Assembly (NCBI RefSeq): GCF_005233845.1
Contig: NZ_SZQL01000010.1
Coordinates: 124,001-188,000, forward strand
DNA length: 64,000 bases
DNA from: Ilyomonas limi
GTDB lineage: Bacteria > Bacteroidota > Bacteroidia > Chitinophagales > Chitinophagaceae
Direction: 5' to 3'
In this document: piece after piece, positions 42,193-47,778 of the stretch
Layout: the number at the start of each line of letters is the position of its first letter
Numbering within the stretch: the first letter of the stretch is position 1
Notes under the pieces: model-generated
Told to the model about the DNA's origin: nothing
Seen by the model: only the letters and a program-made list of their open reading frames with translations
Database searches by the model: none
Translations under genes and position numbers: made by a program

Positions 42193-42951
42193 ATGCTGAC
42201 AAAGAGAATTATCCCATGCCTTGATATTAAAAACGGCAGAACCGTAAAAGGCATCAATTTCGAAAACCTGCGCGATGCCGGTGACCCGGTGGAACTCGGT
42301 GCTTTTTATGCCCGGCAAGGTGCTGATGAACTGGTATTTCTCGATATTACTGCCACCAATGAAAAGCGCAAAACACTAAGCGAGTTGGTGAATAAAATTG
42401 CGCACCGCATTAATATTCCATTTACGGTGGGCGGTGGCATTAGCAGCGTAGCCGATGTGCAGGTATTGTTGCAAAATGGTGCTGATAAAATTTCGGTAAA
42501 TACGGCGGCTTATAAAAATCCGCAGTTGATTAATGATTTAAGCAAAGAATTTGGCAGTCAGTGCGTAGTGCTGGCAATAGATACAAGAAAGGAAGAAGAT
42601 GGCGAGTGGTATGTATATCTCAACGGCGGCAGGGTAAAGACAAACACAAAATGTTTAGATTGGGCTAAGGAAGGCGTGGAGCGGGGTGCCGGTGAAATAT
42701 TGCTCACTTCTATGAACAACGATGGCACAAAACAAGGTTTTGCTTTAGATATAACGCAACAGTTAGCCGCTACGTTACCAGTGCCGGTTATTGCATCGGG
42801 CGGTGGCGGTACGGTACAACATTTTGCCGATGTTTTTGAAGAAGGGCAAGCCGATGCGGCACTGGCAGCCAGCATTTTTCATTTTAAGGAAGTAGATATT
42901 TCGCAGTTGAAAGCTTTTTTGAAAGACAAGGATATTAGTGTCAGGCTTTAG
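42193..42951 (+). CDS. hisF: Imidazole glycerol phosphate synthase cyclase subunit
   Basis: Closes the imidazole ring of histidine using ammonia from HisH, giving IGP and AICAR. 252 residues, a TIM barrel. Seen: [16 protein letters not shown] with the catalytic Asp11, [22 protein letters not shown] with the second catalytic Asp near 130, and ASGGGG near the C-terminus. Followed by hisIE with a 38-nt gap. The glutaminase partner hisH is not in the window. Confidence 0.96.
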
Positions 42952-42989
42952 CGTATTATCGCTTACATAAAAAGCAGTTAATTATTTAC

Positions 42990-43586
42990 ATGGATATTGA
43001 TTTTAAGAAATATGCAGACGGATTAGCACCGGCGATTGTGCAGGATTACACCACCAATCGTGTGCTGATGCTAGGCTTTATGAATGCCGATGCTTTGGAA
43101 GTAACCGGGCGCACCGGCATGGTTACATTTTATAGCCGTAGCAAAAAACGACTTTGGACAAAAGGTGAAGAAAGTGGCAATCATTTGCTGGTAAAACAAA
43201 TAATGGCGGATTGCGATAAAGACACTTTGCTTATAAAAGCTACGCCGGTTGGTCCGGTTTGCCATACCGGCGCTGATACTTGCTTTAGCGAAAAAAATCA
43301 CCGGCAGGACTTTTTGCAGTATCTGGAAGAAATTATACAACTCCGGCAACAGGCAAGCCCCGAAGATTCGTATGTATCGCGCCTGCTGCACAAAGGCATA
43401 AATAAGGTGGCACAAAAAGTGGGCGAGGAAGCGGTAGAACTGGTAATTGAAGCAAAGGATAACAATGAAGGTCTGTTTTTAAACGAAGCGGCTGATTTGC
43501 TGTTTCACTATTTGATTTTGCTCAATGCAAAAGGGTATAATTTACAACATGTAACAGACGTTTTACAAAAACGTCATTCAAAATAA
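42990..43586 (+). CDS. hisIE: Bifunctional phosphoribosyl-AMP cyclohydrolase / phosphoribosyl-ATP pyrophosphatase
   Basis: Does steps 2 and 3 of histidine synthesis. 198 residues: the HisI cyclohydrolase domain at about 1-105 (GFMNADALEVTGRTGMVTFYSRS, zinc ligands in DCDKDT and CHTGADTCF) and the HisE pyrophosphatase domain at about 110-198 (SYVSRLLHKGINKVAQKVGE, then EEAVELVIEAK with the acidic metal site). The fusion is common in Bacteroidota and enteric bacteria. It follows hisF and precedes a TlpA-like gene by 4 nt. Confidence 0.96.
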   Translation: MDIDFKKYADGLAPAIVQDYTTNRVLMLGFMNADALEVTGRTGMVTFYSRSKKRLWTKGEESGNHLLVKQIMADCDKDTLLIKATPVGPVCHTGADTCFSEKNHRQDFLQYLEEIIQLRQQASPEDSYVSRLLHKGINKVAQKVGEEAVELVIEAKDNNEGLFLNEAADLLFHYLILLNAKGYNLQHVTDVLQKRHSK

Positions 43587-44865: not shown

Positions 44866-45369
44866 TTACTGAAAGCTTCGCACCAGCATCGTATTATCAT
44901 GGGGTATGTCGCCGGGTTTGTCTTTTAAAATATTCACCACAATTTTATCTAATGGCAGCGACACTGTTTCAACTGTAAGATCGTCCCATTCTATCCAGCG
45001 AAACACCTCGCATTGAGCCGTTTTATCAGCAACCTGTTCGGGCAAAAAGTCGAATATTTTGGTCTTTGTTTCCAATGCAACCGGCTCTGCAGCATGTACA
45101 AAATAATAGATGGAAATAATTTGATGTTCTTTATTAAAAGCAGAAAGCTGGAAAATATCAGTAGTATAAATGTGATCGCCAATTGTTACAGCCAACCCTG
45201 TTTCCTCCATAAACTCACGTGCCAGGCAATCGCGCGTACCTTCTCCAAACTCCAATCCGCCACCCGGAAATTTTGTATAATATTCGCCCCTTATAAACTC
45301 ATCACTCACCAGCACGCGGTTGTTGCTATCTCTTAAAATACCATATACCCTGATATTAAAATTAAACAT
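44866..45369 (-). CDS. NUDIX hydrolase
   Basis: Hydrolyses a nucleoside diphosphate linked to some moiety X. 167 residues. Seen: a complete Nudix box at about 37-59 (G-x5-E-x7-REFMEETGL) that binds the catalytic divalent metals, in a fold opening with VYGILRDSNNRVLVSDE. The substrate cannot be told. It is divergent from the hisG leader region and convergent with the TlpA-like gene. Confidence 0.88.
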   Translation of the reverse strand: MFNFNIRVYGILRDSNNRVLVSDEFIRGEYYTKFPGGGLEFGEGTRDCLAREFMEETGLAVTIGDHIYTTDIFQLSAFNKEHQIISIYYFVHAAEPVALETKTKIFDFLPEQVADKTAQCEVFRWIEWDDLTVETVSLPLDKIVVNILKDKPGDIPHDNTMLVRSFQ

Positions 45370-45440
45370 ACTTTTCCCTTTATACTTTTACAATGTTCGT
45401 TAATAAATTGTTTCCATTAGCCGTATTACCGGTAAATAAA

Positions 45441-45471
45441 TTTGCTTAAACAAAATCACGCTTTATTTTTG
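45441..45471 (+). promoter_or_regulatory. hisG-hisD promoter (-33 and -7 boxes)
   Basis: TTTG at 45441-45444 and TATTTTTG at 45464-45471 are separated by 19 nt, the best match in the window to the Bacteroidota -33/-7 promoter. The -7 box ends 5 nt before the leader peptide start codon, so the transcript begins almost at that AUG. Confidence 0.7.
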
Positions 45472-45476
45472 CCGGC

Positions 45477-45524
45477 ATGAACAGCAATACGCATACACAT
45501 CATCATATCTTACTGTACCGGTAG
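45477..45524 (+). CDS. hisL: his operon leader peptide (15 codons, four His)
   Basis: Reads MNSNTHTHHHILLYR then TAG. Four of fifteen codons are His, three of them in a row (45498-45506), plus one at 45492. It starts 5 nt after a -7 box and ends 35 nt before a Rho-independent terminator that precedes hisG. This is the layout of a ribosome-stalling attenuator: low His-tRNA stalls translation at the His run and lets hisG-hisD be read. There is no Shine-Dalgarno; near-leaderless initiation is expected. The peptide itself likely has no other role. The symbol hisL is given by analogy with enteric his leaders. Confidence 0.82.
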   Translation: MNSNTHTHHHILLYR

Positions 45525-45586
45525 GCTGGTGTGTTTGTTGTATCTGCAAAAAAACATTGGGCTTACTTGTACGGTAAGCCTTTTTT
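45520..45586 (+). terminator. his attenuator: terminator hairpin with candidate antiterminator
   Basis: Terminator: GGCTTAC (45560-45566) pairs with GTAAGCC (45574-45580), 7-nt loop, then TTTTTT (45581-45586), ending 20 nt before hisG. Antiterminator candidate: GGTAGGCT (45520-45527), overlapping the leader stop codon, can pair with GGCTTACT (45560-45567) using five Watson-Crick and three G-U pairs, which would remove the terminator 5' arm. A ribosome at the leader stop covers 45520-45527; one stalled at the His codons does not. Confidence 0.75.
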
Positions 45587-45606
45587 ATTGTATTTAAATA
45601 AACAAA

Positions 45607-46476
45607 ATGATAAACGCTAATACCGTTCTTAAGCTGGCGGTGCAAAAATCGGGTCGCCTGCACGACGATTCTATGAAGCTCTTAAAAGAGTGCGGAATTG
45701 ACATTACCAACGGGGTGAATAAACTAAAAAGTGAAGCTTCCAACTTTCCGCTGGAAGTATTCTTTTTGCGTGATGATGATATTCCGCAGTACATAGAAGA
45801 TGCTGTTGCCGACATTGGTTTTGTGGGTGAGAATGTAGTGTATGAAAAAAATAAAAATGTACAGGTAGAACATAAACTGGGTTTTGGCAAATGCCGTTTA
45901 AGTATCGCTGTTGATAAAAACGAAACATACGATGGCGTGCAGTACTTGCAAGGCAAACGCATCGCTACCAGTTATCCGTTAATCCTTAATGATTTCTTGC
46001 AAAAAAATAATGTAACTGCCGAGATTCACGAAATTAGCGGCAGTGTGGAGATAGCACCTGGTATTGGGCTGGCACATGCTATCTGCGATTTGGTAAGCAG
46101 CGGTTCTACCTTATTTATGAATGGCTTGAAAGAAGCTGAAACCATTCTGCAATCGCAGGCAGTGCTTATTAGAAATAAAGATCTGGATGAAGCACAACAG
46201 ACAATTCTGGACAAACTACTCTTTCGTATACAAGCGGTAAAAAAGGCAAAAAACAACAAGTATATTTTACTGAATGCGCCCGAAGAAAAACTGGGTGAAA
46301 TTATTGCTTTATTGCCGGGCATGAAAAGTCCGACTGTTACACCACTGGCCGAAAAAGGCTGGCACAGTGTACACAGTGTATTGAGCGAAGATACTTTTTG
46401 GGATATTATAGAAAAGCTCAAAAATGCAGGCGCACAAGGCATTCTGGTGATACCGATTGAGAAGATGATTATCTGA
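45607..46476 (+). CDS. hisG: ATP phosphoribosyltransferase, long form
   Basis: First and flux-controlling step of histidine synthesis: joins ATP and PRPP. 289 residues, so the long, self-sufficient type with a C-terminal ACT-like regulatory domain that binds histidine; no HisZ is needed. Seen: LKLAVQKSGRLHDDSMKLL at the N-terminus, the PRPP loop region EIAPGIGLAHAICDLVSSG, and the regulatory-domain start LLPGMKSPTVTPL at about 230-245. Controlled by the leader peptide attenuator just upstream and, by family, by histidine feedback. hisD follows 21 nt later. Confidence 0.95.
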   Translation: MINANTVLKLAVQKSGRLHDDSMKLLKECGIDITNGVNKLKSEASNFPLEVFFLRDDDIPQYIEDAVADIGFVGENVVYEKNKNVQVEHKLGFGKCRLSIAVDKNETYDGVQYLQGKRIATSYPLILNDFLQKNNVTAEIHEISGSVEIAPGIGLAHAICDLVSSGSTLFMNGLKEAETILQSQAVLIRNKDLDEAQQTILDKLLFRIQAVKKAKNNKYILLNAPEEKLGEIIALLPGMKSPTVTPLAEKGWHSVHSVLSEDTFWDIIEKLKNAGAQGILVIPIEKMII

Positions 46477-46497: not shown

Positions 46498-47778
46498 ATG
46501 ATTGTCGTTAAAAATCCTCCCCGGGAAGCATGGCAGGGACTACTGCAACGTCCTGCTTTTGACGCGGTTTCGTTGCAGGAAAAGGTAGCTGCCATATTGA
46601 ATGATATAAAAACAAATGGCGACGAAGCTGTGTTGAAATACACAGCTTTATACGATGGTGTACAATTAGATAATTTTATTGTAACTAAAGAAGAAATTGC
46701 TGCTGCACATCAACAAATAAGCAACGAGTTGAAGGCGGCAATTGTACTTGCTGCAAACAACATCAAGACTTTTCATGCAAAGCAATTAACTGCAAAAAAG
46801 GAAGTGATAGAAACAATGCCCGGCATTGCCTGCTGGCGCAAACCGGTAGCAATCGAGAAAGTAGGTTTGTATGTTCCCGGCGGCAGCGCACCGCTTTTTT
46901 CTACAGTATTGATGTTGGCTATTCCGGCACAATTAGCTGGCTGCAAAGAGATTGTATTGTGCACCCCACCGGCAAAAAATGGTACAATCCATCCAGCTAT
47001 TTTGTTTGCAGCAGCGCTTACGGGCGTTACTACCATCATTAAGGCAGGTGGCGTACAGGCAATTGGGGCAATGGCGTATGGCACTGAAAGCGTATCAAAA
47101 GTGTATAAAATTTTAGGACCAGGCAATCAGTATGTAACCTGCGCCAAGCAGTTGGTACAGCAGGAGGGCATTGCTATAGATATGCCTGCCGGCCCCAGCG
47201 AAGTATGTGTGCTGGCTGATGAAAGCGCCAATGCAGCTTTTGTTGCAGCAGATTTATTATCGCAGGCAGAGCATGGGGTAGATAGCCAGGTATTACTCGT
47301 AACTACAAGCGCAAGGCTGATAGAAGAAACAACTAAAGAAATAGGCAAACAGTTGGAAAATTTGCCACGGCAGGAAATTGCTGTGAGAGCATTGGAGAAT
47401 AGCAAAATGATTTTGCTGGATAATATGGAAGATATGATTGCGATGGTCAATGAATATGCTGCCGAGCACTTAATTCTCGCCTGCAACAATGCCGATGCAG
47501 TTGCAGAAAGAATAGTGAATGCAGGTTCTGTATTTATTGGCAATTTTTCGCCGGAAAGTGTGGGCGATTATGCCAGTGGTACCAATCATACACTGCCGAC
47601 ACATGGGTTTGCAAAAGCCTACAGCGGTGTAAGCGTAGATAGCTTTGTAAAAAAGATAACCTATCAAAAGCTTACACAAAACGGCTTGAATGCAATTGCT
47701 TCTTCGGTAATAACAATGGCAGAAGCAGAGGGCTTGCGGGCACATGCAGAGGCGGTGAAAATAAGGGTAAAAGGATAA
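46498..47778 (+). CDS. hisD: Histidinol dehydrogenase
   Basis: Last two steps of histidine synthesis: histidinol to histidine with two NAD+. 426 residues, the usual size. Seen: VGLYVPGGSAPLFSTVLM, GPGNQYVTCAKQL, the signature around IDMPAGPSEVCVLAD, SQAEHGVDSQ with the Glu-His catalytic/zinc region, and a C-terminal NHTLPTHGFAKAYSG. It ends in a terminator shared with the convergent pseudouridine synthase gene; hisC, hisB, hisH and hisA are not beside it. Confidence 0.96.
   Translation: MIVVKNPPREAWQGLLQRPAFDAVSLQEKVAAILNDIKTNGDEAVLKYTALYDGVQLDNFIVTKEEIAAAHQQISNELKAAIVLAANNIKTFHAKQLTAKKEVIETMPGIACWRKPVAIEKVGLYVPGGSAPLFSTVLMLAIPAQLAGCKEIVLCTPPAKNGTIHPAILFAAALTGVTTIIKAGGVQAIGAMAYGTESVSKVYKILGPGNQYVTCAKQLVQQEGIAIDMPAGPSEVCVLADESANAAFVAADLLSQAEHGVDSQVLLVTTSARLIEETTKEIGKQLENLPRQEIAVRALENSKMILLDNMEDMIAMVNEYAAEHLILACNNADAVAERIVNAGSVFIGNFSPESVGDYASGTNHTLPTHGFAKAYSGVSVDSFVKKITYQKLTQNGLNAIASSVITMAEAEGLRAHAEAVKIRVKG

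Follow-up and report, generated by a model that had tools for sequence, protein, structure and literature searches.

A ribosome-mediated transcription attenuator very probably controls hisG and the genes behind it in Ilyomonas limi. The initial annotation had proposed an enteric-type logic for this locus, and the proposal is supported by the conservation of the leader, the terminator and the alternative pairing, as well as by the geometry between the His codon run and the second pairing segment; the transcription start site, the translation of the leader, the stalling of the ribosome and the response to histidine are inferred. The mechanism of attenuation is already known, and what is new is its spread in Bacteroidota, together with a putative version for lysine. 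The elements identified in the window, that is, the whole stretch of 64,000 nucleotides that was analysed, were the following:

45441–45444, forward strand: −33 promoter element TTTG, read directly, with a 19-nt spacer to the −7 box
45464–45471, forward strand: −7 promoter element TATTTTTG, of the TAnnTTTG type, read directly
45476, forward strand: predicted transcription start (±1 nt), from published box positions and spacing
45477–45524, forward strand: leader ORF MNSNTHTHHHILLYR, 15 codons with His at codons 6, 8, 9 and 10, stop TAG at 45522–45524, read directly
45479–45510, forward strand: segment 1 (approximate limits), leader-coding strand predicted to pair with segment 2 as anti-antiterminator, duplex of −21.9 kcal/mol
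45520–45541, forward strand: segment 2, putative 5′ strand of the antiterminator, with the core GGTAGGCT at 45520–45527 over the leader stop, followed by more of the stem
45552–45567, forward strand: segment 3, putative 3′ strand of the antiterminator, containing the terminator 5′ arm
45559–45566, forward strand: terminator 5′ arm GGGCTTAC, part of segment 3, read directly
45574–45586, forward strand: segment 4, comprising the 3′ arm of the terminator, GTAAGCCT, and the T tract, from direct reading and covariation
45607–46476, forward strand: hisG (ATP phosphoribosyltransferase; PF01634, E 5.7e-51), start ATG at 45607, presumed regulated gene
46498–47778, forward strand: ORF after hisG in the ORF list, which we take to be hisD-like, presumed to belong to the same operon

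Upstream of hisG by 2–3.4 kb, and on the same strand, the window also carries two ORFs (42193–43586) that are presumably hisF-like and hisIE-like; as they lie apart from hisG, with other ORFs between, the his genes seem to be split into at least two groups. Close relatives of the HisG protein by name, among the best 80 of 323 relatives, were those of Deminuibacter soli, Foetidibacter luteolus, Hydrotalea flava, Sediminibacterium and Chitinophaga.

Searches for HisG gave a match in 22 of 39 relatives and in 181 of 244 family, 50 of 119 order and 171 of 198 phylum genomes, these sets being partly overlapping. A total of 237 upstream regions were read, with a recognisable HisG start in 233 of them. 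They corresponded to 126 of the 181 family matches, to 38 of 39 same-order genomes (37 usable), to all 34 same-class matches from the phylum search, and to 37 of 126 matches from other classes (34 usable), these last being the best HisG matches plus our own picks and not a random draw. Dropped from the analysis were four loci with no recognisable HisG start motif (L022, L222, L228, L233) and two duplicates (L147, L151). A His-rich leader was defined as a short ORF upstream of hisG with at least three His codons in seven, and dinucleotide shuffles served as null. Such an ORF was found in 118/126 family (5.7 expected from shuffles), 27/37 order (0.6), 34/34 class (0.9) and 27/34 other-class loci (2.3), leaving eight of the 126 family loci without a His-rich leader by this rule. 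A separate scan of genome contigs, covering the best 80 of 323 relatives and overlapping partly with the first set of hisG regions, found a His-rich ORF in all 80 loci, 73 of which also match a simple arm-copy pattern. The 15-codon peptide with His at positions 6, 8, 9 and 10 was correctly placed by the initial annotation, and a His-rich leader, whose conservation in relatives had been suggested as a check, is kept in nearly all family loci and in most of those read from the rest of the phylum.

The promoter proposed for this leader, TTTG followed after 19 nt by TATTTTTG, lies at the coordinates claimed. Of the 118 family leaders, 105 have a TAnnTTTG box that is followed by a start codon in frame, against 4.5 in shuffled sequences. 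In 70 of these 105, TTTG is found 17–20 nt ahead of the −7 box, and five of them start with GTG. Only 5 nt (CCGGC) separate the −7 box from the leader ATG at 45477 in the window. These 5 nt had been read as the length of the untranslated leader; counted as they are from the −7 box, and given that the box sits at −12 to −5 in Flavobacterium psychrophilum (PMC9723704) and that promoters of F. johnsoniae were accepted at 4–5 nt from box to start site (PMC6847099), they translate into a predicted 5′UTR of 0–1 nt. Transcription of the window leader is therefore predicted to begin at or within about 1 nt of its AUG.

Box-to-start distances among the 105 family leaders were of 4 nt in 23, 5 nt in seven, up to 8 nt in 48, up to 13 nt in 79, and 14–20 nt in 26; in the separate scan (n = 66) they were of 4 nt in 14, up to 13 nt in 56, and 16–21 nt in 10. 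From these distances, many family leaders are predicted to be leaderless or nearly so, and about a quarter to have a 5′UTR of 10–16 nt. The box was rarer outside the family (13/27 order, 19/34 class and 11/27 other-class leaders), and the distance was 13 nt or less in only four of the 19 class leaders. A start this close to the box is not a peculiarity of the his leader, since in 464 kb of the I. limi genome 16 of 299 long ORFs also showed a TAnnTTTG box 4–9 nt ahead of their first ATG. Boxes are clearly denser in this range than farther away, and a second group of 21 of the same ORFs has them at 16–26 nt. A control demanding TTTG plus TAnnTTTG retrieved only three sites before the 299 genes, a rule too strict to be used. 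Predicted leaderless mRNAs are perhaps commoner in I. limi than in Flavobacterium and Bacteroides, for which published values are low: a leaderless fraction of 5.5% in F. psychrophilum (PMC9723704), and about 3.7% of 5′UTRs with a length below 10 nt in B. thetaiotaomicron (PMC7366714).

The terminator before hisG could be read directly as GGGCTTAC (45559–45566), a loop TTGTACG, GTAAGCCT (45574–45581) and six T (45581–45586). A strict rule (stem of at least 6, energy of −7 kcal/mol or lower, eight or more T in 12) recognised a terminator behind 91 of 118 leaders in the family, 16 of 27 in the order, 21 of 34 in the class and 11 of 27 in other classes, for null expectations of 0.6, 0, 0.2 and 0.2, respectively; the other 27 family leaders failed it. 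For the analysis of compensatory changes, 68 family sequences were aligned, with four of the 72 selected (L019, L028, L087 and L114) omitted as off-type, an omission that favours the counts for terminator, antiterminator and segment 1:2 pairing alike. In this alignment, 98.5% of the terminator cells were paired, 8 of 10 pairs showed two-sided changes, and two-sided cells amounted to 55 against 6.5 in shuffles, with the proviso, for all counts of this kind, that common descent can lift sequences above such shuffles even when there is no structure. An unbiased covariation ranking on 107 of 111 non-redundant rows (L003, L022, L052 and L075 removed) placed terminator pairs near the top and one segment 1:2 pair lower, many of the top pairs being neighbouring columns. 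The terminator claimed by the initial annotation is confirmed, and the covariation that it had asked to look for in relatives was found in the terminator stem.

Regarding the antiterminator, the initial annotation had described a very compact pairing of 8 bp with three G-U pairs. The pairing itself, GGTAGGCT with GGCTTACT, with its three G-U and with GGTAGGCT spanning the leader stop, stands as described, but not its compactness, as in the fold of the window the stem goes on with GTGTTT (45531–45536) paired to AAACAT (45552–45557). Duplexes between segments 2 and 3 with z ≤ −2 were detected in 74/91 loci of the family, 9/16 of the order, 10/21 of the class and 2/11 of other classes, and the best stem between them ranked fifth or better against 100 shuffles in 83/91, 6/16, 14/21 and 4/11, respectively, so that support for the predicted antiterminator is weaker outside the family. 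The whole stretch from leader to terminator folds at z ≤ −2 in 66 of 91 family loci. Over the 68 aligned family sequences, 78.0% of the antiterminator cells were paired (74.4 in shuffles), with 59 two-sided cells against 35.3. The number of its pairs with two-sided changes showed no excess (10 against a shuffled mean of 9.4; 253/500), because the core is almost invariant within the family, and this near-invariant core was absent from the top of the 107-row ranking. One of the pairs proposed for it, columns 75:136, fails in 62 of the 68 sequences. For the pairing of the leader-coding strand with segment 2, 78.4% of cells were paired against 74.6 in shuffles, above 500 of 500 shuffles, and two-sided cells were 52 against 31.7 in the same 68 sequences. 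Chance as the origin of leader, terminator, box and pairing was ruled out by the shuffles.

The clearest case for the putative antiterminator is the replacement of its arms with the pairing kept. Seventeen class loci, which we take to be flavobacteria, together with L087 and L188, carry TCA[AG]GCG or TCGAGCG in segment 2 and CGTTTGA in segment 3 (for example, TCAAGCG with CGTTTGA). Another three loci (L135, L140 and L141) show TGGCAGGCT in segment 2 and either GGCCTGCCA or AGCCTGCCA in segment 3, and L218 and L219 combine AGACGG with CCGTCT, the pairing being preserved in all five.

The position of segment 2 is also narrowly defined: counted from the first base of the final His codon, it starts at 14–20 nt in 84 of 91 family loci. 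The front edge of a ribosome is expected about 12 nt beyond the codon in the A site, which would leave segment 2 just beyond the edge of a ribosome stalled on the His run. The putative antiterminator uses the 5′ arm of the terminator, the two structures being mutually exclusive, and it is so placed that it would be exposed by a stall and covered by a ribosome at the stop.

Folds of the window RNA favoured the antiterminator when nascent and stalled (−16.8 kcal/mol), when finished with the ribosome stalled at codon 10 (A site; −21.9 kcal/mol), and also when free of ribosomes (−33.7 kcal/mol), this last result arguing against termination by default of an untranslated leader. Across the family, the nascent stalled RNA of all 91 loci has half or more of the terminator 5′ arm paired with upstream sequence (53.4 in shuffles), and that of 52 loci has at least 70% of it so paired (19.6 in shuffles). 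A ribosome placed at the stop gave the terminator fold in 91/91 family loci, and the RNA free of ribosomes gave it in 90/91. The minimum-energy fold of the finished stalled RNA was the terminator in 81 of 91 loci and the antiterminator in the other 10, so that equilibrium folding fails as a proof of the switch, which must be a kinetic one that depends on the order of synthesis. Reliance on this order is also a property of textbook attenuators.

According to this model, RNA polymerase would start at or within about 1 nt of the leader AUG, and a ribosome would load on the (nearly) leaderless 5′ end and follow it. With ample His-tRNA, the ribosome would reach the stop and cover segments 1 and 2, segments 3 and 4 would form the terminator, and transcription would end. 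When His-tRNA is scarce, it would stall on the His run with its front edge just short of segment 2, and pairing of segments 2 and 3 before segment 4 is made would pre-empt the terminator and allow the transcription of hisG. In a leader that is not translated, segment 1 would pair with segment 2, letting the terminator form.

A covariance model built from the family his leader was searched in 78 family genomes, giving a match at E ≤ 0.01 in 74 of them, 59 of these at E ≤ 2.4e-8. In the I. limi genome, the hisG leader was the only match below E 0.01. The weaker matches were not all at hisG. Sixteen of them were read, 15 from the search of the family genomes and one from that of the I. limi genome, and the genes behind were named by us from their sequence, except for the trpE and thrA genes of I. 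limi itself, identified by PF04715 and PF00742, respectively. Seven of the 16 lie before asd (aspartate-semialdehyde dehydrogenase; L281, L279, L283, L286, L287, L288 and L291) and present a Lys-rich leader ORF of the MKHTKRTKKQ type and a terminator, with the same arm-copy layout as the his leader. In relatives too, Lys-containing leader ORFs with terminators precede an aminotransferase plus aspartokinase in three cases (L276, L277 and L278) and a lysA-like gene in one (L285). Another match precedes the trpE of a relative (L292), with the Trp leader MNNFFSNKYWWLSRWQLVNS and then a terminator, and the remaining four (L280, L282, L284 and L289) were chance-like.

Of 88 family genomes, 87 yielded an asd gene, and 51 of these loci were read. 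A first rule of five Lys codons in 12 turned out to be too strict, with 20 loci unplaced, and it was loosened after this first look to at least four Lys codons in nine, in a fixed orientation. Under the latter rule, 31 of the 51 loci had a Lys-rich ORF (5.6 in shuffles) and 23 had both leader and terminator (0.0 in shuffles); among 20 loci picked as mostly divergent, the ORF appeared in only three and leader with terminator in two. The asd leader of I. limi, MRTALYTTKRIKKPLS (L251, about 14178–14310 of contig G000:C1), has three Lys codons, with a terminator behind it, and falls below the rule. Including it, 22 of 24 Lys leaders have the start of segment 2 at 12–19 nt from the second Lys of the KK pair, and 22 of 24 have a stem that ranks fifth or better against 100 shuffles; the promoter box, where present, is located 7–9 nt before the start in 18 of 20. 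The codons follow the gene: only 1 of 51 asd loci satisfied the His rule, and 4 of 125 hisG loci the Lys rule. Lysine would be, to our knowledge, a new specificity for leader-peptide attenuation, lysine sensing being better known from lysine riboswitches.

Upstream of its own trpE (L238, about 1181–1310), I. limi carries the Trp leader MKKRVLNNNWWWHANLGRGL followed by a terminator, and for both its trp and its lys leaders the fold of the complete stalled RNA is the terminator. Its thrA gene (L290, contig G000:C4) is preceded by a short ORF rich in Thr and Ile, MLSPFNHIITSNTVALTATTITIITTL, presumably reminiscent of thrL, with no recognisable terminator behind it in the upstream region, and no clear leader was seen upstream of the two copies of ilvD and of one homoserine dehydrogenase of the same genome. 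The Bacteroid-trp RNA (RF01692), which we take to be a Trp leader attenuator, gave no match at E ≤ 1 in seven loci scanned, that of I. limi trpE included. This RNA is listed as a candidate motif for Bacteroidetes (PMC2864571).

On balance, we rather favour the view that Bacteroidota use a modular platform of leader-peptide attenuation fitted to initiation without Shine-Dalgarno sequences, with a leader AUG at or close to the RNA 5′ end, a run of regulatory codons, and, at or close to the leader stop, an arm of the antiterminator that copies the 3′ arm of the terminator. In this platform, the codons would be swapped according to the pathway: His for hisG, Trp for trpE, perhaps Thr/Ile for thrA, and Lys for asd, the aminotransferase–aspartokinase pair and lysA.

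Both this change of codons with the regulated pathway and the narrow spacing between the His run and segment 2 bear on the possibility that the unit from promoter to terminator mainly yields a small RNA or a His-rich peptide acting in trans, with hisG under its own control. There is a precedent in the trpL of Sinorhizobium meliloti, for which trans roles of the attenuator-derived RNA and of the leader peptide have been reported (PMC7298713), but neither of those two features, nor the pairing of segments 2 and 3, is predicted by such a role, which we regard as improbable as the main one. Trans and cis roles of a leader are nevertheless compatible and do not exclude each other. Even less probable would be an attenuation exerted on the initiation of hisG translation or through Rho, with the stem as a merely structural element. 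Action at the level of translation is known for some attenuators (PMC9413887); however, the stem in the window has a T tract and ends ahead of the hisG start, and the terminator rule satisfied by 91 of 118 family leaders demands T-rich sequence. Finally, direct sensing of histidine or of uncharged tRNA by a riboswitch or T-box, with the short ORF being incidental, is hardly credible even though T-boxes regulate his genes in Firmicutes and Actinobacteria (PMC9413887), as no Rfam family matched the window at gathering level or positions 45300–45720 at E ≤ 5, and the conserved feature is the His codons.

Attenuation by the leader peptide being the preferred reading, the I. limi system can be compared with those already described. 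Enteric his operons are preceded by an attenuator of the same kind (RF00514; PMC9413887), in which a short ORF with clustered His codons is combined with alternative pairings and a terminator ahead of the operon. In the window, by contrast, the leader AUG is predicted to lie at the very 5′ end of the RNA, with segment 2 spanning the leader stop. The Rfam searches above include RF00514 His_leader, of which neither the window at the gathering threshold nor 45300–45720 at E ≤ 5 gave a match. Leader peptides for his genes have been described in gamma-proteobacteria and some Firmicutes (PMC9413887, PMC2965389). The Firmicutes attenuators, found by comparison, share the histidine leader peptide upstream of his-related genes (PMC9413887, PMC2965389) and the terminator and antiterminator hairpins (PMC9413887), but belong to another phylum; "Bacteroidetes" is absent from the main text of PMC9413887, and words beginning with "Bacteroid" from that of PMC2965389. 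In the same phylum as I. limi, "strong clues" of leader peptide attenuation upstream of amino acid biosynthesis operons were reported for F. psychrophilum (PMC9723704), with no his leader named and the word "histidine" absent from the main text, although its Table S7 may list one; for B. thetaiotaomicron, short ORFs reminiscent of leader peptides were mentioned (PMC7366714). Our searches of open-licence papers listed none on a Bacteroidota his attenuator. A leader ORF at the RNA 5′ end, which is predicted for the window, has been described for trpL of S. meliloti (PMC7298713) and ilvBNC of Corynebacterium glutamicum (PMC11857589); in the latter, a hairpin was argued both to prevent leaderless initiation and to serve as anti-antiterminator (PMC11857589). 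These two belong to other phyla and respond to other amino acids.

Messenger RNAs of Bacteroidota have been reported to lack Shine-Dalgarno sequences (PMC6847099, PMC3155529). If a his attenuator does operate across such a phylum, close coupling of the leading ribosome to RNA polymerase would have to work there, and the his leader would offer a ready reporter for ribosome loading in Bacteroidota. Of most interest to specialists is the lysine version, followed by the leaderless start predicted here. The Lys leaders, if real, may extend the list of amino acids known to be sensed by leader-peptide attenuation.

In addition to this, one of the class hisG leaders (L192, positions 291–399) showed a match to RF00514 of 33.7 bits, below the gathering threshold of 49.
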